This document shows, one piece after another, positions 3,996-11,859 of a stretch of DNA of 64,000 bases. Each line of letters begins with the position of its first letter. Position 1 is the first letter of the stretch. The position numbers and the translations under genes are program-made. The DNA is from Desulfobacterales bacterium (GTDB taxonomy: Bacteria; Desulfobacterota; Desulfobacteria; Desulfobacterales; JAAELO01): positions 1 to 64,000 of the forward strand of contig JAAELO010000399.1 in NCBI GenBank assembly GCA_024226555.1, given 5' to 3'. The notes under the pieces are model-generated. The model was given only the letters and a program-made list of their open reading frames with translations. It searched no databases and had not been told where the DNA came from.

Positions 3996-4832
3996 TTAAA
4001 AATTGGATTGGCTAACAACCGTTTTAAGAAATTGGTTGCTCTCATTTAGTCCGTGTTCGCAAAAATCACCAAAGAAACTTTTAATATCTTCAAGATAAGC
4101 AACTCTGTTTTCATGGTCGTTACAGAGTACATCACTTGCATTTGAAAGGTTGTTTAAGAAAAGATCCAGAGTTTCTTTAAAGTATTTATTATCACCAACT
4201 AATGTGGAATATAGATGAAGATCCTGGGCAAAAAGTCTTCCTATAATATCAGTATTGATTCGAAATATTGGAGTTGATAAAGATGTAATCTTATCTGGTG
4301 TTAAACCAAGATCTTTTAGAGTTTTTCCCATGGTTATAGTTATTATGTGAGTTAAGCTTTGGGCAACAGCCATATGTTTATCGTGCTCATCTGCAGCTAT
4401 TTCAGAAACAACAGCTCCATTTTCTGTAAATAGAGATTTTAAGAAAGATAAGTGTCTATCTCCTTTGCCTTCACAGAATATAATATTATGACCTGCTATA
4501 GAGTTTGAGAAAGGTCCAAACATTGGATGAATACCAAGAACACTGGATTTACTCTTACTATTCATCATGGCTACAATATCTTCTTTCTGGGAGCATACAT
4601 CTGCAAGAAGTTGGTTTTCGTTAAGATGAGGACCAATTTCCTCGGTGATTTTAAGAGCTGCTTTAATTGGTGTACTTATTAAAACAATATCACTTTTTTT
4701 TGATAGTTCTATATTTGTAAGTTCTGTAGCAACATCAGATATCAGGACTTTAATTCCATTACTTTCAAAGAAGGTCTGAAACCATTTACCCATACTTCCC
4801 ATACCACCAATAATTCCTATAACCCTTTTCAT
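3996..4832 (-). CDS. tyrA: prephenate dehydrogenase (TyrA)
   Basis: 278 residues. It carries out NAD(P)-dependent oxidative decarboxylation of prephenate (or arogenate) on the way to tyrosine. The N-terminal Rossmann glycine motif is GIIGGMGSMGKWF (residues 6-18), followed by the catalytic-domain signature LGIHPMFGPF (about residues 98-107), in which His and the GPF segment are typical of TyrA. AADEHDKHMAVAQSLTH follows near residue 145. It is monofunctional, without a chorismate mutase or ACT domain, consistent with the mutase residing on PheA upstream. It is the last gene of the aromatic operon and its ATG overlaps the aroC stop by 4 bases (4829-4832), suggesting translational coupling. Confidence 0.92.
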   Translation of the reverse strand: MKRVIGIIGGMGSMGKWFQTFFESNGIKVLISDVATELTNIELSKKSDIVLISTPIKAALKITEEIGPHLNENQLLADVCSQKEDIVAMMNSKSKSSVLGIHPMFGPFSNSIAGHNIIFCEGKGDRHLSFLKSLFTENGAVVSEIAADEHDKHMAVAQSLTHIITITMGKTLKDLGLTPDKITSLSTPIFRINTDIIGRLFAQDLHLYSTLVGDNKYFKETLDLFLNNLSNASDVLCNDHENRVAYLEDIKSFFGDFCEHGLNESNQFLKTVVSQSNF

Positions 4833-5881
4833 GAAATAGTCCTCTGTCTTAATATATGGTCAGCAATAACTATACTAATCATAGCCTCACATACAACGTT
4901 AATTCTTGGAATTGGTGATATATCATGCCTGCCTTTTGTTGATATTTTCATTTGATTATTATCAATATCAACAGTAGCTTGCTCAATAAGAATAGATGGA
5001 ATAGGTTTTACAGCAATACGAACTATAATGTCATCTCCATTTGATATTCCTGCAAGTATTCCACCTGCATTATTAGAAGTAAAACCATCTGGTGTTATTT
5101 CGTCGTTATTCTGAGAACCTCGTAATTTAGTTGCTTCAAAACCATTTCCAATCTCAACACCTTTTACAGCACCAATGCTCATTACAGCTTTTGCAATATC
5201 AGCATCCAATTTATCAAATACTGGTTCTCCAAGGCCTGAAGGTACATTTTTAACTATAACTTCTACGACACCTCCTACAGAATCACCGGCTTTTATAGCA
5301 CTTACAACCTCTTTATCCATAAGTTTAAAAGCTTCCATATCAGGGCATAGAAAAGGATTTTTACTTATATCATTCAGATTGAATTGTACTGCCTTGATTC
5401 CAGCAAACTCTTTTGTATATGAAATAATTTCAATATTTTCACTTTTTAATATCTGCATTGCAACACTTCCTGCTGCAACTCTTCCTGCTGTCTCTCTTCC
5501 TGATGACCTTCCGCCACCTCTGTAATCACGGATTCCATATTTTTTCTGATATGTGATGTCACCATGCCCAGGTCTGAAAATATCTTTTATTTCACTGTAA
5601 TCTCTTGATTTGGCATCTTTATTTTCAATAAAGATCATTATAGGAGTGCCGGTTGTTTTACCTTCAAATACACCTGAAACAATATTTGCTTTATCTTTTT
5701 CTTTTCTTCCGGTGCTTGCTTTGGATCCACCGGGTTTTCTTCTATCCATTAATTCCTGAACAATCTCCTCTGTTAGATCAAGCATTGGTGGACATCCATC
5801 TATAGTTACACCAATACTCTTTCCATGGGATTCTCCGAAAGTAGTAATTTTAAAAATATGACCAAAAGAGTTTCCAGGCAT
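4829..5881 (-). CDS. aroC: chorismate synthase
   Basis: 350 residues. It converts 5-enolpyruvylshikimate-3-phosphate to chorismate with reduced FMN. Family motifs are plain: FGESHGKSIGVTIDG at residues 15-29, the RPGHGD near residue 103, then YRGGGRSSGRETAGRVAAG. Length is normal. The codon order in the operon is aroK-aroC-tyrA with only 13 bases to aroK and an overlap with tyrA. The start ATG at 5881 gives the standard short MPGNSFG N-terminus. A flavin reductase is needed by monofunctional enzymes; none is visible in the operon. Confidence 0.97.
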   Translation of the reverse strand: MPGNSFGHIFKITTFGESHGKSIGVTIDGCPPMLDLTEEIVQELMDRRKPGGSKASTGRKEKDKANIVSGVFEGKTTGTPIMIFIENKDAKSRDYSEIKDIFRPGHGDITYQKKYGIRDYRGGGRSSGRETAGRVAAGSVAMQILKSENIEIISYTKEFAGIKAVQFNLNDISKNPFLCPDMEAFKLMDKEVVSAIKAGDSVGGVVEVIVKNVPSGLGEPVFDKLDADIAKAVMSIGAVKGVEIGNGFEATKLRGSQNNDEITPDGFTSNNAGGILAGISNGDDIIVRIAVKPIPSILIEQATVDIDNNQMKISTKGRHDISPIPRINVVCEAMISIVIADHILRQRTIS

Positions 5882-5894
5882 AATTAAATTCCTT

Positions 5895-6425
5895 TTAAAT
5901 TTTTAAACCACGTTCTTTAATTGTATTAACTATGTTAATGGATATATCTTCCAAATTAATCTCATCTGTATTAATTGAAAAATCACAGGATTTTTCATAA
6001 AGAGGTGTTCTTTTTGAAAGTGTTTCATTAATTTCAGCTTCAAGATCAGTATCAAGTAAGCTGGGTCTTTTTGAAGCTGTGTTTACATCAGAAACCATCC
6101 TTTCAAAAATAGTCTCCTTTGACGCTGTAAGCCAAACAACAATCCCACTTCTTCTTAAATTACTAATATTTGAGCTATTCAGGATAACACCACCACCGGT
6201 TGAAACAATAGTTTTATCAAGGAAACTAATATTTCTGATAGCTTCCTTTTCTCGTTTTCTGAATTTATCCCAACCTTCCTCTTCAACCATTTCAGATATA
6301 GTTGTGTTATACTCTTTTTCTACTTCTTCATCTGAATCAACAAAAGGCCATTTAAGGTATTTACTCAAAAGTTCTCCAACAGTAGTTTTTCCGGTACATC
6401 TGTAACCTATCAAAAAAATATTCAT
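5895..6425 (-). CDS. aroK: shikimate kinase
   Basis: 176 residues. It phosphorylates shikimate at the 3-hydroxyl using ATP. The Walker A motif is GYRCTGKT (residues 7-14), the shikimate-binding DSDEEVE is near residue 31, the GGGVI motif near 77-81, and the lid region around KRPSLLD. Cytoplasmic, standard length. It is separated from the upstream aroA by repeat copy 4 and so is the first gene after a structured intra-operon spacer. It is followed after 13 bases by aroC. Confidence 0.96.
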   Translation of the reverse strand: MNIFLIGYRCTGKTTVGELLSKYLKWPFVDSDEEVEKEYNTTISEMVEEEGWDKFRKREKEAIRNISFLDKTIVSTGGGVILNSSNISNLRRSGIVVWLTASKETIFERMVSDVNTASKRPSLLDTDLEAEINETLSKRTPLYEKSCDFSINTDEINLEDISINIVNTIKERGLKI

Positions 6426-6439
6426 TTTAATTCTCTATT

Positions 6440-6568
6440 GGGAACCTCTAATAATTAGAATTTTTGATGAAATACAAGGCATAACAAAAAACAACGGGTT
6501 GATTTTACTACAGTTTTATTTTTGTTGTAACGATGTATTTCGCAAAAAGATCAGTTATTAGAGGTTCC
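6440..6568 (-). repeat. dispersed AT-rich repeat, copy 4, inside the aromatic operon
   Basis: A compact 129-bp copy with both termini: GGGAACCTCTAATAATTAG on the left and CAGTTATTAGAGGTTCC on the right. It lies directly against the aroA stop codon (6569-6571) and 14 bases upstream of the aroK ATG, so the operon transcript would carry it as a potential long hairpin. Confidence 0.92.
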
Positions 6569-7828
6569 TTATTTATAAAGTTGATCGAAAACATCCCAGT
6601 AGTTTGGGAAAGATTTTGCAACACACATCTCATCGTTAATTTTAATTCCAGGAGTAACAAGTCCTGCTAAGGAAAAGCTCATTGCCATTCTGTGATCATC
6701 ATAGGTATCTATTACTGCTTCTTTTGCCCCACCACCTGTAATAAAGAGCTTATCATCTGTACAACTTGCTTTTACACCCATTTTTTGAAGTTCTGCAACT
6801 GTACAGTTTAGTCTGTCACATTCTTTAGCTTTTAAGTGAGAAACATTATTAATTATAGTTTCACCCTCAGCAAAAGCTGCAACAACTGCTAAAGTTGGTG
6901 CAACATCCGGCATATCAGACATATCAGCATTAATAGCTTTAAGTGGTTTTCCAAGAACTGAGATTCCATCGGTTTCAACTTTAATATCACAACCCATCTC
7001 TTCAAGGAGTTTAACAAACTTAACATCACCCTGAACAGAAGATGTTGATATATTATTCACTTTGATTTTTTTACCTGTGATAGCTGCTGCACCCCAGTAG
7101 TAACTCGCATTTGAACAATCAGGTTCAACAACATACTGACCTGATTTATAAACCTGATTACCTTCAACAAAGAATTTTCTATAACCATCCTGTTCAATCT
7201 TTATACCAGCTCTTTCCATTATATCAATAGTCATATCTATATATGGTTTACTAACAGGCTCTGATGGAAGTGATATCTCAACTCCATTAATAGAGAAAGG
7301 GGATATTAGTAAAAGGGCAGAAAGATACTGGCTGCTTATGCTACAATCAACAGATATTTTACCTCCGTTAATTCTGGCTCCTTTGACAGATACAGGTGGA
7401 CAACTGTTTTTGTTAACAGAAAAAGCATTAACATCCAATTGTGAAAGTGCATCTAATAGATCACTAATTGGGCGTTCGTGCATTCTATCTGTTCCGGTAA
7501 GTAAATAGGTACCATTTCCAATTGCAGCGATACCTGTTAATAATCTTAAGGAAGTTCCTGAATTAGCAAGATATATCTCGCTGTTTTTATATGGGAAAAT
7601 TCCTGAATTTCCATATATTGTAAAAATATTATTATCTTCTTCTATATCAACGCCCATCGTTTTAAGAGCTTTAATAGTAAGAAGGGTATCTTCACTTTGA
7701 AGACAGTTTTCAACTTTAGAAATTCCATTTGAAAGTGAAGCTGCAATTAAGCTTCTGTGTGAATAGCTTTTTGAACCGGGAATAGTAACTGATGTATCTT
7801 TCAGTTCTCCGGTTTTGATCTCTTTCAT
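6569..7828 (-). CDS. aroA: 3-phosphoshikimate 1-carboxyvinyltransferase (EPSP synthase)
   Basis: 419 residues. It transfers enolpyruvate from PEP to shikimate-3-phosphate. Motifs include PGSKSYSHRSLIAASLS at residues 18-34, LANSGTSLRLLTG near 86-98 (the PEP-site LxNxGTxxR pattern), SSQYLSALLLISP, and KAKECDRLNCTVAELQKMG in the second half, with DHRMAMSFSLAGL near the end. Length is typical. The gene starts 3 bases after the aroE stop. Its stop codon is at the boundary of repeat copy 4, which separates it from aroK. Confidence 0.97.
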   Translation of the reverse strand: MKEIKTGELKDTSVTIPGSKSYSHRSLIAASLSNGISKVENCLQSEDTLLTIKALKTMGVDIEEDNNIFTIYGNSGIFPYKNSEIYLANSGTSLRLLTGIAAIGNGTYLLTGTDRMHERPISDLLDALSQLDVNAFSVNKNSCPPVSVKGARINGGKISVDCSISSQYLSALLLISPFSINGVEISLPSEPVSKPYIDMTIDIMERAGIKIEQDGYRKFFVEGNQVYKSGQYVVEPDCSNASYYWGAAAITGKKIKVNNISTSSVQGDVKFVKLLEEMGCDIKVETDGISVLGKPLKAINADMSDMPDVAPTLAVVAAFAEGETIINNVSHLKAKECDRLNCTVAELQKMGVKASCTDDKLFITGGGAKEAVIDTYDDHRMAMSFSLAGLVTPGIKINDEMCVAKSFPNYWDVFDQLYK

Positions 7829-7831
7829 CTT

Positions 7832-8653
7832 TTACCTCTTTGTTAGTTCCTCTAAAACAGCATTTTTCATCTCGATATAAGGACCTTTTAAACCTGTCCA
7901 TGCTTCAAATTGAAGAACTGCCTGATTAACAAACATTTCTATGCCATTAACAGTAATACAACCTTTTTTTTCAGCATCTTTTAACAGTTTTGTTTTCAAA
8001 GGGTTATACACAATATCCATAACAACCTGTTTACTATGCAGACTATTTAAATCAATTGGAGATGAATCGACATTTGGGTGCATTCCAAGGGAGGTGGTAT
8101 TTATTAAAATATCAAAATCAGAAACGTTGATTTTATCTAATCCTGTAAATTCACAGGACAGAAAATTTGCAAGATCAACACCTTTTTGCGTTGTTCGGTT
8201 AGTTATGGTCAAATCACCAGAGCTTTTATTAATACCATAACCTATAGCTCTTGCAGAACCTCCTGAACCAAAGATAAGGATTTTTTTATCTTTGATTTCA
8301 GTTTTGATTTTTAATGCTTTTATCGCTCCATCACAATCTGTATTTAATCCTTTAAGAACTCCATTCTCATTTATAATAGTGTTAACAGCACCAATATCTT
8401 CAGCTGTTTTATCAATATAATCCAGAGAATTCATAACTTCAAGTTTATGAGGAATAGTAATGCTCGCCCCCTTAATTCCAAGAGCACGAATTCCTTCAAT
8501 TGAAGTTTTAATATCTTCTACTTTAAAAGCAACATAAGCTCCATTAAATTTTGTCACTTTAAAAGCCAGATTATGAATTAAAGGGCTTAAGCTGTGGGCA
8601 ACCGGGTTGCCGATTACACAAAACAGAGAAGTGTTGGAATCGATATTAGTCAA
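7832..8653 (-). CDS. aroE: shikimate 5-dehydrogenase
   Basis: 273 residues. It reduces 3-dehydroshikimate to shikimate with NADPH. Substrate-binding motif GNPVAHSLSPLIHN is at residues 15-28, the catalytic Lys motif TIPHKLEVM near 66-74, and the nucleotide motif FGSGGSARAIGYG near 127-139. It is monofunctional: no dehydroquinate dehydratase domain is fused, although such AroD-AroE fusions exist elsewhere. It overlaps pheA by 8 bases (8646-8653). The dehydroquinate dehydratase needed between AroB' and AroE is not in this window. Confidence 0.96.
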   Translation of the reverse strand: MTNIDSNTSLFCVIGNPVAHSLSPLIHNLAFKVTKFNGAYVAFKVEDIKTSIEGIRALGIKGASITIPHKLEVMNSLDYIDKTAEDIGAVNTIINENGVLKGLNTDCDGAIKALKIKTEIKDKKILIFGSGGSARAIGYGINKSSGDLTITNRTTQKGVDLANFLSCEFTGLDKINVSDFDILINTTSLGMHPNVDSSPIDLNSLHSKQVVMDIVYNPLKTKLLKDAEKKGCITVNGIEMFVNQAVLQFEAWTGLKGPYIEMKNAVLEELTKR

Positions 8654-9776
8654 TTTTTTCTATTTCCTCAATTTTATGTTCAAGATTGGGATATGAACCA
8701 AGATTTTTATGAAAAAGACAGAACTCTTTCATCTTTTCCAATGCATCCTGAAGATTTTTATCCTCAATATGACCTTCAATATCCATAATAAAGAAGTAAT
8801 TCCAGTTCTGCCTTTTAGTTGGTCTTGATTCAAGTTTAACAATATTCAAACCAGCTTTGGCAACAGGTTCAAGAGCATTAAAAAGGGCTCCTGGATTGTG
8901 GGCCGTAACAAACATAATTGATGTTTTGTCATTACCTGTTTTTTTAGTTATCGCTTCTTTACTAAGGATCAGAAACCGGGTTACATTTTTTGAGTAGTCA
9001 GCAATCTGAGGTTTAATAACTTTAAGATTATACATTTGTGCGGCTTTAGTACTTGCAATAGCAGCAATTTTACTGTTTTCAGATGCTTTTTGAGCGGCTC
9101 TTGCTGTACTGCTACACTCTTCAATCTGAACCCCAGGAAGGTTTGTAGATAGCCAGTTTCTACATTGTCCACAAGGTTGAGGGTGTGAATATACAATATT
9201 AACATCTGAAATATCACCGGTTTTAGAAAGAAGAGCATGTGAAATTGGTTGATATTTCTCTGATGATATTTTCAGATCCGTTTCAAAAAGTTGATCAAGA
9301 GTTGGATTTACAGCTCCTTCAATAGAATTTTCAACAGGAACTACACCAAAATTTGAATTTCCCCTTTCAACATCAAGAAAAATATCTTTTATGTTAAATT
9401 TAGGAACAAAAGTACCGGAATGGCCGAAATAATTCATTGCTGCAATATGTGAATAAGTTGCTTCCGGTCCAAGATAGGAGATCATAAGAGGTTTTTGAAT
9501 CTCTTTTGTCGCTGTTATTATTACACTATAGATATAGTGAAGTACATTTTCAGCGAGAGGTCCTTTATTGATTGATTGTAACCTTTCAAGAATTGCTTTT
9601 TCCCTGCCTGTATCAAGGATCTGGTTGCCCTTCTCAAATTTCTGTTTTCCAATCTGTTTTCCATATAGCAATCTGTCATTGAGAAGATTTACAATAGTTT
9701 CATCTATTTTATCTATCTCTATCCTACATTCATCTATAGATTTGTTTTCAGCAATATCATCATATTTATTTTTCAT
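8646..9776 (-). CDS. pheA: bifunctional chorismate mutase/prephenate dehydratase (P-protein)
   Basis: 376 residues. It converts chorismate to prephenate and then phenylpyruvate. The N-terminal AroQ-type chorismate mutase spans about residues 10-90 (CRIEIDKIDETIVNLLNDR, GKQIGKQKF). The prephenate dehydratase spans about 97-275 (SYLGPEATYSHIAA; GVVPVENSIEGAVNPTLD; a TRFLIL segment near 265). A C-terminal ACT domain carries LESRPTKRQNWNYFF, the usual Phe-binding regulatory motif, so allosteric inhibition by phenylalanine is expected. It starts 2 bases after the DHQ synthase II stop and overlaps aroE, implying tight coupling. The chorismate mutase also supplies prephenate to TyrA. Confidence 0.97.
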   Translation of the reverse strand: MKNKYDDIAENKSIDECRIEIDKIDETIVNLLNDRLLYGKQIGKQKFEKGNQILDTGREKAILERLQSINKGPLAENVLHYIYSVIITATKEIQKPLMISYLGPEATYSHIAAMNYFGHSGTFVPKFNIKDIFLDVERGNSNFGVVPVENSIEGAVNPTLDQLFETDLKISSEKYQPISHALLSKTGDISDVNIVYSHPQPCGQCRNWLSTNLPGVQIEECSSTARAAQKASENSKIAAIASTKAAQMYNLKVIKPQIADYSKNVTRFLILSKEAITKKTGNDKTSIMFVTAHNPGALFNALEPVAKAGLNIVKLESRPTKRQNWNYFFIMDIEGHIEDKNLQDALEKMKEFCLFHKNLGSYPNLEHKIEEIEKID

Positions 9777-9778
9777 GG

Positions 9779-10771
9779 TTATTTCTCAGTAATTGTTTCA
9801 TCAATTTTATGTCCGAAATGTCTGGCGTGATCTTCAATTGCTACCAGGACTTTATCACCATTTTTTAAAGAAACCACAGAAATAGGTTCTCCATTTGGAG
9901 AGGTAAGTCTTATAGTTTCGGCATTTTGAACTATTGTTGTGATTGTTTTGTCGGATGCTTGCGCCTTAATGAGCATTAAAGGTCTTTTCTCAATCTTAAG
10001 TCTGCCAACAATAGCTACTTTTGATTTTCCATTATAATCTGTAATCATAATCTGATCGCCGGACTGCAAATCTGAAAGATATTTTGTTTTTCCTCCAGGT
10101 ACTCTGCAATAAGCATGAACTGCACCAGCATTAATTCTAAAAGGTCTTGGATTAACATATGGGTTAGAAACAGTTTCAGCATGAACAAGAAAAAGAGCTT
10201 TACTACTGTTACCGGTAAGCATTCCTTCGCCTGGTTCCATGGAAGTACAAGTGTCAACACAAACCCTGTCGCCCATTCCAAGAGGTTCAACACTAATTAT
10301 CTCAGCTTCAGTAAGATCTGTTGTTTCTGTATTTTTACGAAGCTTTGAAAGAGATGATTTAAGTTCAAGAGCATCTGTTGTGTGATAAAGTATGTGATCT
10401 ACACCTTTTTCCAATATGGTAAAAGCAGTATTTGCTTCATCATAATTTTTAACAAGTGTTATAACATCAGCACCTTTTGCAATCAGATTTTCAAGTGGAA
10501 TTATTGTCCAATCAGTACACTCAACAATTACTTTCTGATTTTGACAAAGCTTTAAAATTTCATCTTCATCTTCACCACTTGTTATTTTAAAGTTGACTAC
10601 ATCAACACCTGGTTTAAGATCACCATCTTCTGAGATAGTTTCAACAATTCCAAGTTCTTTAACTTTCTCAGAATATCCGTCGGGTACCATAATTCCATCT
10701 ACACCACCTTCAAGAGCCGTGGTAACAATGTCTTTGTCAAAAGGGTCCACTTTTACCCAAATCTTTTTCAT
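9779..10771 (-). CDS. 3-dehydroquinate synthase II (archaeal type)
   Basis: 330 residues of the DHQS II/AroB' family. It makes 3-dehydroquinate from 2-amino-3,7-dideoxy-D-threo-hept-6-ulosonate by NAD-dependent oxidative deamination and cyclisation, and is unrelated to classical AroB. Signatures include the N-terminal KKIWVKVDPFDKDIVTTAL, ISVEPLGMGDRVCVDTC in the middle, GEGMLTGNSS, and the C-terminal NAGAVHAYCRVPGGKT and GDKVLVAIEDHARHFGH. The gene follows ADTH synthase after 13 bases, the pairing expected for the two-step route. No classical aroB or DAHP synthase is present in the window. Confidence 0.95.
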   Translation of the reverse strand: MKKIWVKVDPFDKDIVTTALEGGVDGIMVPDGYSEKVKELGIVETISEDGDLKPGVDVVNFKITSGEDEDEILKLCQNQKVIVECTDWTIIPLENLIAKGADVITLVKNYDEANTAFTILEKGVDHILYHTTDALELKSSLSKLRKNTETTDLTEAEIISVEPLGMGDRVCVDTCTSMEPGEGMLTGNSSKALFLVHAETVSNPYVNPRPFRINAGAVHAYCRVPGGKTKYLSDLQSGDQIMITDYNGKSKVAIVGRLKIEKRPLMLIKAQASDKTITTIVQNAETIRLTSPNGEPISVVSLKNGDKVLVAIEDHARHFGHKIDETITEK

Positions 10772-10784
10772 ATAATCCTCTTTT

Positions 10785-11582
10785 CTACCTTAAAATTTCA
10801 AGCGCTTCTTCAACACTACAATTTTCATTGATAACTTTTGCCATCGCTTTTACCATATTTTTAGGATCTCTATGTTGAAAAACATTACGACCTATAGAAA
10901 CACCGGCTCCACCAGCTTCAATTGAACCCTTTACCATTTCGAGAATATCACGATCTGAATCCATTTTATCACCACCAGCTATAACTACTGGAACAGAACA
11001 GCCTTCAGTTACCTTTATAAAGGATTCAGGAGAACCAGTATAGGAAACTTTTACGATATCAGCACCCATTTCACATCCAACCCTTGCAGCATGTTTTATA
11101 ACTTCAACATCATATTCATTGGATATTTTTTCCCCCCTTGGGTATATCATTGCAAGAAGAGGCATACCCCATGATCTTGCCTGGTAACTAACTTCACCAA
11201 AATCTCTAAGCATCTCTTTTTCATCAGCATCACCTAAATTTACGTGAATTGATACAGCATCAGCACCTAATTTTAGAGCTTCTTCTACAGAGCAAACAAG
11301 AGTTTTGGCATTTGGAAATGGTGATAATGTTGTTGATGCAGAAAGGTGAATTATAAGCCCAATATCTGGCCCCTCTCCTCTTAATCCATCATCAACAAGG
11401 CCTTTATGCTCGACAATTGCGTTAGCCCCACCATTTGCGACTTGTTGAATGGTTTTTTTAAGATCTATAACACCATCAATAGGTCCAACAGTTGTTCCAT
11501 GATCAATAGGAACAACTATAGTTTTACCCGTGCCCCTGTTGAAGATTCTCTCCATTCTGATTCTTTTACCAATAGTAGACAT
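10785..11582 (-). CDS. 2-amino-3,7-dideoxy-D-threo-hept-6-ulosonate (ADTH) synthase
   Basis: 265 residues, class I fructose-bisphosphate aldolase-like TIM barrel. In the alternative shikimate entry (known from methanogens and some deltaproteobacteria) this enzyme joins a dihydroxyacetone-derived sugar phosphate with aspartate semialdehyde. Visible motifs: [15 protein letters not shown] near residue 25, [25 protein letters not shown], the Schiff-base Lys context [11 protein letters not shown], and VVIAGGDK. The frame stays open 90 bases upstream to 11672, but that stretch runs through the leader terminator; ATG 11582, preceded by ACAAGGAAA, is the sensible start. It is the first structural gene after the attenuator. 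Confidence 0.93.
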
Positions 11583-11628
11583 AAAATATTTCCTTGTAAG
11601 AGTTTTGATAAAAATAAACCAGGCATAA

Positions 11629-11663
11629 AAAAAGGCCGTAAGAAAATCTCTCACGGCCTTTTT
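11629..11663 (-). terminator. attenuator terminator hairpin upstream of ADTH synthase
   Basis: On the minus strand AAAAAGGCCGT (11663-11653) pairs with ACGGCCTTTTT (11639-11629), an 11-bp stem with a 13-base loop, followed by further Ts down to 11627. It has the form of an intrinsic terminator and lies between the leader peptide and the ADTH synthase start, 44 bases before the ATG. Confidence 0.9.
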
Positions 11664-11672
11664 GATTATCAA

Positions 11673-11701
11673 AAACCGCGGAGTCTGACCTTCCGCGGTT
11701 T
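11673..11701 (-). promoter_or_regulatory. upstream leader hairpin of the aromatic operon attenuator
   Basis: AAACCGCGGA (11701-11692) pairs perfectly with TCCGCGGTTT (11682-11673) across a 9-base loop. It begins 12 bases after the leader-peptide stop codon. Its 3' arm plus following bases, CGGTTTTTGAT, is complementary (with a GG bulge) to ATCAAAAAGGCCG at the 5' arm of the terminator, so a mutually exclusive antiterminator can be drawn. The actual folding switch is inference. Confidence 0.8.
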
Positions 11702-11713
11702 ATTTCGCTTCTT

Positions 11714-11803
11714 TTAAATTATGCGAACATAGCCAGGAAGACCACTACTAAAATAGTAATAGCTAAAATAAAAATAAAATTTTCCTGTCGTTGTTCTAAA
11801 CAT
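11714..11803 (-). CDS. Phe/Tyr-rich leader peptide of the aromatic operon
   Basis: A 29-codon ORF: ATG at 11803, TAA at 11716-11714. It is preceded by a good ribosome binding site, GAGGA, with 6 bases of spacing. Residues 9-18 read FYFYFSYYYF, nine aromatics in ten residues; F2 and Y25 add two more. It contains no Trp. Such a run just before tandem hairpins and an amino acid biosynthesis gene is the hallmark of ribosome-mediated attenuation, as in the pheA leader of enterobacteria. The expected logic is that shortage of charged tRNA-Phe or tRNA-Tyr stalls the ribosome and favours read-through into the operon. The peptide itself needs no function. A frame on the opposite strand across this region is a shadow. 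Confidence 0.9.
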   Translation of the reverse strand: MFRTTTGKFYFYFSYYYFSSGLPGYVRII

Positions 11804-11830
11804 ATCTTTTCCTCGTTAAATTTTTTACGG

Positions 11831-11859
11831 AATATATCTTCAAATTAATAATTTGTCAA
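11831..11859 (-). promoter_or_regulatory. sigma70-type promoter of the aromatic operon
   Basis: TTGACA (-35) at 11859-11854, a 17-base spacer, and TATATT (-10) at 11836-11831 on the minus strand. Transcription would start about 20 bases upstream of the leader-peptide ATG at 11803. Spacing and boxes are near the bacterial consensus. Confidence 0.85.

Follow-up and report, generated by a model that had tools for sequence, protein, structure and literature searches.

In the leaders of the E. coli pheA and trp operons, the control codons are placed in segment 1 of the transcript, and the alternative pairings 1:2, 2:3 and 3:4 govern a terminator followed by a U-tract. The enterobacterial his operon leader (RF00514) has a longer chain, in which six segments form the stem-loops AB, CD and EF, with DE as the alternative (PMC10989985). 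In that leader, an intermediate hairpin lies between the control codons and the terminator, and it depends on the alternative chain whether the terminator arm is free or held (PMC10989985, PMC1183508); the additional hairpin has been suggested to lower the basal leak (PMC1183508). Closer in gene content and lifestyle, a putative attenuator before aroA′-aroB′-pheA-aroF-tyrA-trp of the sulfate reducer Desulfovibrio vulgaris appears in a table published in 2005 (PMC1173090, Table 7, Merino database), and this entry is a listing, which as tabulated gives no leader peptide, mechanism, control codons, segments or distribution.

The leader reported here begins with the pairing logic of pheA and trp, whose leaders nevertheless have only four segments, one terminator, a single amino acid as signal and no second relay step. 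It shares with the his leader the six segments and the intermediate hairpin, but differs from it in codons, genes, phylum and sequence, and in most of its members a U-tract follows both 3:4 and 5:6, whereas in the his leader only EF is followed by one. That only the last hairpin terminates, as in his, was observed neither in the locus studied nor in most relatives, and was restricted to leaders such as L004, L010 and L015. It shares with the D. vulgaris entry the first two genes and the prediction of attenuation; since that entry exists, attenuation before these genes is not wholly new, and the original prediction that no such leader had been described has to be toned down; the tabulated listing includes neither the leader peptide nor the mechanism.

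The locus lies on the minus strand of the window, by which is meant the whole 64,000-nucleotide stretch of DNA that was analysed. The host is a sulfate-reducer-type bacterium, and the leader precedes an eight-gene operon for the synthesis of phenylalanine and tyrosine, composed as follows.

10785-11582, minus: ADTH synthase (2-amino-3,7-dideoxy-D-threo-hept-6-ulosonate synthase, aroA′; TIGR01949, 363.8 bits, cut-off 299.45)
9779-10771, minus: 3-dehydroquinate synthase II (aroB′; NF002627, 492.4 bits, cut-off 392)
8646-9776, minus: chorismate mutase/prephenate dehydratase (pheA; NCBIfam)
7832-8653, minus: shikimate dehydrogenase (aroE; NCBIfam)
6569-7828, minus: EPSP synthase (aroA; NCBIfam)
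5895-6425, minus: shikimate kinase-like (aroK; NCBIfam, best match below cut-off)
4829-5881, minus: chorismate synthase (aroC; NCBIfam)
3996-4832, minus: prephenate dehydrogenase-like (tyrA; NCBIfam, matches below cut-off)

No gene for 3-dehydroquinate dehydratase was recognised within the operon (3996-11582), so that, if the pathway is complete, this gene must lie elsewhere. Upstream of ADTH synthase, a promoter-like site, a GAGGA, a leader ORF and two hairpins with U-tracts follow one another in this order.

11831-11859, minus: sigma-70-like promoter, TTGACA-17-TATATT (consensus scan, 11/12)
11810-11814, minus: Shine-Dalgarno GAGGA of the leader ORF (sequence)
11714-11803, minus: leader ORF MFRTTTGKFYFYFSYYYFSSGLPGYVRII, 29 codons, ATG at 11803, stop ending at 11714 (sequence; an aromatic ORF of the same kind at 90 distinct loci)
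11750-11779, minus: control codons F Y F Y F S Y Y Y F, nine of ten Phe or Tyr (sequence; position conserved in relatives)
11782-11787, minus: segment 1, outer arm CAGGAA, pairing with TTCCTG at 11734-11739 (folding; the equivalent helix covaries)
11754-11763, minus: segment 1, inner arm GCTATTACTA, containing Tyr codons, pairing with TAGTAGTGGT at 11741-11750 (folding)
11733-11750, minus: segment 2, TAGTAGTGGTCTTCCTGG, pairing with 1 or with 3 (UGGUCUUCC with GGAAGGUCA) (duplex and covariation)
11686-11701, minus: segment 3, AAACCGCGGAAGGTCA, pairing with 2 (antiterminator) or with 4 (terminator T1) (duplex and covariation)
11669-11683, minus: segment 4, CTCCGCGGTTTTTGA, the 3′ arm and U-tract of T1, with 5 as alternative partner (duplex and covariation)
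11648-11665, minus: segment 5, TCAAAAAGGCCGTGAGAG, pairing with 4 or 6 (duplex and covariation)
11626-11646, minus: segment 6, TTTTCTTACGGCCTTTTTTTA, the 3′ arm and U-tract of terminator T2 (duplex and covariation)

The promoter, ribosome-binding site, 29-codon ORF with its nine aromatic codons in ten, two hairpins and ADTH synthase were thus all found where the original prediction had placed them. The promoter match is weak evidence, since its conservation in relatives showed no enrichment over shuffles when this was sought. The run of aromatic codons by itself is not rare in this A+T-rich genome either, in which a genome-wide search returned 24 exact matches of the pattern versus 36 of its reversal; the case that the leader exceeds chance comes therefore from its position and conservation, and not from the run. 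The folding of the leader region was more stable than that of all of 200 shuffles (z = −5.18). A short ORF that looks translated, with control codons matching the product of the operon, is what characterises a ribosome-mediated attenuator, as is an intrinsic terminator between this ORF and the first gene, which is present here twice. After hairpin 1 (11701-11673) the sequence reads TTTTTGA, and after hairpin 2 (11665-11632) it reads TTTTTTTA, so that, judging from their sequence, both look like intrinsic terminators, where only the second had been taken for one. Both also carry the common core GCCGTGG/CCACGGC, and a plus-strand model match at 11535-11709 was rejected as a second element, being the mirror image of these palindromic hairpins.

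The conservation of the leader was evaluated with relatives of ADTH synthase gathered from GTDB genomes and related genomes, in which distinct loci of at least 68% identity with 500 bases available upstream were counted, and those truncated at the end of a contig were excluded. A short aromatic-rich ORF was found upstream of the orthologous gene in 90 of the 92 distinct loci, the exceptions being L025 and L053; relatives lacking the aromatic codons and the terminator, named beforehand as a refutation, were thus looked for, and the refutation did not follow. An ORF with at least seven aromatic residues in ten was present in 85 of 90 upstream regions, versus 36 of 2000 control windows; the latter were drawn from the same loci, and copies of the leader are probably included in some of them. 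The consensus peptide is approximately M...SGRFYFYYWYYFSTGLPGVR, with a mean content of 3.7 Phe, 4.8 Tyr and 0.8 Trp in the leaders. The leader in the window has no Trp codon, in line with the Phe and Tyr signal first proposed, but 73% of the relatives' leaders add Trp, and the signal of the group is better written as Phe and Tyr, with Trp in most members.

In these relatives, segment 1 (TCAGGCAGA) pairs with segment 2 (GGTCTGCCTG) and encloses the control codons; segment 2 pairs alternatively with GGGCAGACC inside segment 3; segments 3 and 4 (GCCGTGGG..CCCACGGC) form a hairpin followed by a U-tract; segment 4 may also pair with segment 5 (CCACGGCUUUU with AAAGGCCGUGG); and segment 5 pairs with segment 6, before a second U-tract. 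The peptide is conserved at its two ends, SGR and GLPGVR, which fall on RNA segments 1 and 2, and the pairing of these segments explains this conservation. In the window, the stretch GGTCTTCC of segment 2, whose partner is segment 3, reads as GLP in the peptide; it is kept for RNA reasons, and GLP is its reading. The corresponding duplex energies are −14.9 (1:2), −12.8 (2:3), −17.2 (3:4), −15.5 (4:5) and −23.6 kcal/mol (5:6). The 2:3 pairing of UGGUCUUCC with GGAAGGUCA comprises nine pairs, including two G-U, and is by itself unexceptional against shuffles (657/5000). An additional pairing between GTCTTCC and GGAAG had already been suspected, and it corresponds to this antiterminator, which is longer than was claimed. 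It had also been objected that a ribosome stalled on the aromatic codons would be too far from the first hairpin. This objection falls, because the control codons sit in the 1:2 hairpin, which had been overlooked, and a stalled ribosome would mask segment 1 and not the terminator.

From the codons, the conserved position and the covariation of 1:2, 2:3 and 3:4, the leader very probably acts by ribosome-mediated attenuation through Phe and Tyr codons, as originally predicted. We further propose, with a probability of about 0.75, that it is a six-segment relay with two terminators that reads the supply of Phe and Tyr (and of Trp in most relatives) for the whole aromatic operon. With charged tRNAs in good supply, the ribosome would run to the stop codon and cover or engage segment 2, so that 3:4 would form as T1, and any polymerase leaking past T1 would meet 5:6 as T2. 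When Phe- or Tyr-tRNA is short, the ribosome would stall within segment 1, at the control codons, leaving segment 2 free to pair with segment 3 as soon as it emerges. Segment 4, unusable by T1, would then pair with the emerging segment 5, and segment 5, held by 4, would be unavailable to 6, allowing the polymerase to pass both terminators. Without translation, 1:2 would form, and both terminators with it. The 4:5 pairing suggests a relay, through which the freed segment 4 would also disarm T2.

The five helices were evaluated by a swap test, in which cognate partners were compared with permuted ones in 55 leaders less than 75% identical. All successive pairings proved partner-specific, with z of −6.1 for 1:2, −7.1 for 2:3, −10.8 for 3:4, −7.5 for 4:5 and −11.5 for 5:6, and no partner preference was detected in the same leaders for the controls 3:6, 2:5, 1:4, 1:3, 2:4 and 4:6 (z −0.8 to +0.6). 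The chain of five alternative pairings A-F that is typical of his is hence present, and covariation was found for each of them in the 55 leaders; as in known attenuators, terminator and antiterminator are mutually exclusive, with 1:2, 2:3 and 3:4 covarying. In co-transcriptional snapshots, 2:3 was formed before segment 4 emerged in 55/55 leaders, and 4:5 was formed in 55/55 when segment 3 was occupied. At equilibrium, the terminators won in the stalled state of the window (P(3:4) = 1.0), and the E. coli trp and his leaders, when freed downstream of their control codons, likewise folded to terminators in the same calculation. The stalled-ribosome folding that had been suggested as a check thus did not discriminate; it favours the terminators even when the ribosome is stalled, and therefore the switch must be kinetic, operating during transcription.

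The alternative that survives best, although we consider it unlikely, is an ordinary four-segment attenuator (1:2, 2:3, 3:4) accompanied by an independent back-up or constitutive partial terminator, in which case 4:5 would be functionless. Segments 1 to 4 suffice in the relatives L020, L031, L055, L065 and L101, which miss hairpin 2 and have T1 only. Moreover, the genome of the window contains a second ADTH synthase-like gene, 62% identical (L002, G000:C885, about 9207-9410, minus strand), with its own aromatic leader (..EYFFSFYFFFGFILACDS) and a complete four-segment, single-terminator attenuator, whose pairing energies are −13.1, −20.6 and −23.0 kcal/mol. L002 was for this reason discarded as a negative control; for L003, the other ADTH synthase paralogue, no aromatic attenuator was found. 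A functionless 4:5 is, however, at odds with its partner specificity and its covariation, which 3:6 does not share. Two-sided changes in 4:5 amounted to 22 cells versus 7.5 after shuffling (reached in 0/500 shuffles), compared with 7 versus 4.9 expected for 3:6. When independent evolution of the columns was simulated on the ADTH synthase tree, the 22 cells stood against 5.7 (0/400) and the 3:6 control was unremarkable (110/400), with the excess of paired 4:5 cells alone being only marginal (29/400). The signal was replicated in 14 leaders of the order that precede genes other than ADTH synthase (p = 0.008; 3:6, p = 0.51); in trp-type leaders, 4:5 specificity did not go beyond p = 0.08. Besides, hairpin 1 has lost its U-tract in L004, L006-L008, L010, L012, L015, L039, L090, L096 and L097, and consequently only hairpin 2 can terminate there; under the four-segment alternative these leaders would be unregulated, yet, in those tested (e.g., L004, L010, L015, L039, L096, L097), 4:5 is kept at −10.7 to −18.0 kcal/mol. 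A strong, unregulated T2 would also block the operon under starvation.

It is less probable still that segments 3-4 and 5-6 derive from a tandem duplication with gene conversion, and that the complementarity of 4 and 5 is a by-product of copying. The common core of both hairpins fits such an origin, and so does the preference of 3:6 for cognate partners outside the order, which is significant in leaders from other orders and confounds the 4:5 test there. However, copying predicts a 3:6 coupling equal to that of 4:5, and in the 55 leaders the values were z −0.6 versus −7.5; simple hairpin duplication is disfavoured because this coupling is absent. In L018, L094 and L112, moreover, segment 5 has changed along with 4, whereas its own partner 6, or else segment 3, has diverged. 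Finally, the idea that the operon is separated from the gene upstream by two plain terminators, with an aromatic ORF present by chance, can draw on the abundance of such codon runs in this genome but is practically dismissed by the conservation of the ORF, its position, the complementarity of segments 1, 2 and 3 and the gene context across the order and beyond.

The distribution of the leader was followed with a covariance model (R1), matches being counted at E 0.01. Within the order, 133 of 146 genomes gave matches. So did 228 of 241 genomes sampled from the class, all of those listed belonging to this same order, and 148 of 297 genomes sampled from the phylum, where many of the matches were weak. 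Inspection of the gene context of 60 further matches located the aromatic leader upstream of aroE and of pheA as well; in genomes that yielded no ADTH synthase, it often stood upstream of DAHP synthase (L131-L136, L138-L143, L147-L149, L166, L167 and L170). In other orders, it preceded DAHP synthase, ADTH synthase and an aminotransferase. In L181, L184 and L186, aromatic tandem-hairpin leaders were observed before a PLP aminotransferase (NF005305 for L181), which may serve these organisms as their aromatic aminotransferase.

The weaker matches corresponded to related tandem-hairpin leaders with other codons. Several of those located before trpE or trpD contained Trp runs (WWW) (L151, L153-L157, L159, L161-L165 and L169). 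Phe-rich versions (e.g., FFYFCFFRFFSGFYF) preceded a phenylacetate-CoA ligase or an ABC-type binding protein (L152, L158, L160 and L168), which suggests Phe supply as the signal controlling arylacetate salvage. A Val-rich leader (GVLVVVV) with tandem hairpins was present before an acetolactate synthase gene in L174, from another order of the phylum.

In the window, no Rfam family reached its gathering threshold, amino-acid operon leaders included, and the best local score of the His_leader model (RF00514) was 15.9 bits, against a gathering threshold of 49. No description of the leader peptide, the relay or the spread was found in the openly accessible papers searched. The six-segment chain is already known from the his leader and its principle is textbook; the second terminator, the Phe and Tyr (and Trp) codons and the phylum-wide spread appear to be new, and neither the double-terminator relay nor the exchange of enzymes behind a fixed switch is textbook. 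A broader reading, for which we see even chances, is that this constitutes a distinct double-lock architecture, in which one stalled ribosome would act through a five-helix chain on two successive terminators. It would be the standard control of aromatic synthesis in the order of the window and in much of the phylum, and, with other control codons, it would have been put to further use before trpE/trpD (runs of Trp), before phenylacetate-CoA ligase clusters (runs of Phe), before an acetolactate synthase (rich in Val) and before an aminotransferase. The switch would have been kept while the first enzyme, ADTH synthase or DAHP synthase, was exchanged.

For a large group of anaerobes, these findings provide a concrete, testable regulator of aromatic amino acid synthesis. 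Few transcription factors of the aromatic pathway have been reconstructed in these organisms, and orthologues of only five of the regulators studied were reported for deltaproteobacteria (PMC5343134). The covariance model is ready for use with a family that is absent from Rfam. As a natural double-terminator relay, the leader predicts a very low basal leak, which is also the function suggested for the additional hairpin of his (PMC1183508), and it represents a regulator that has persisted while one first enzyme of the pathway was exchanged for another, non-homologous one.
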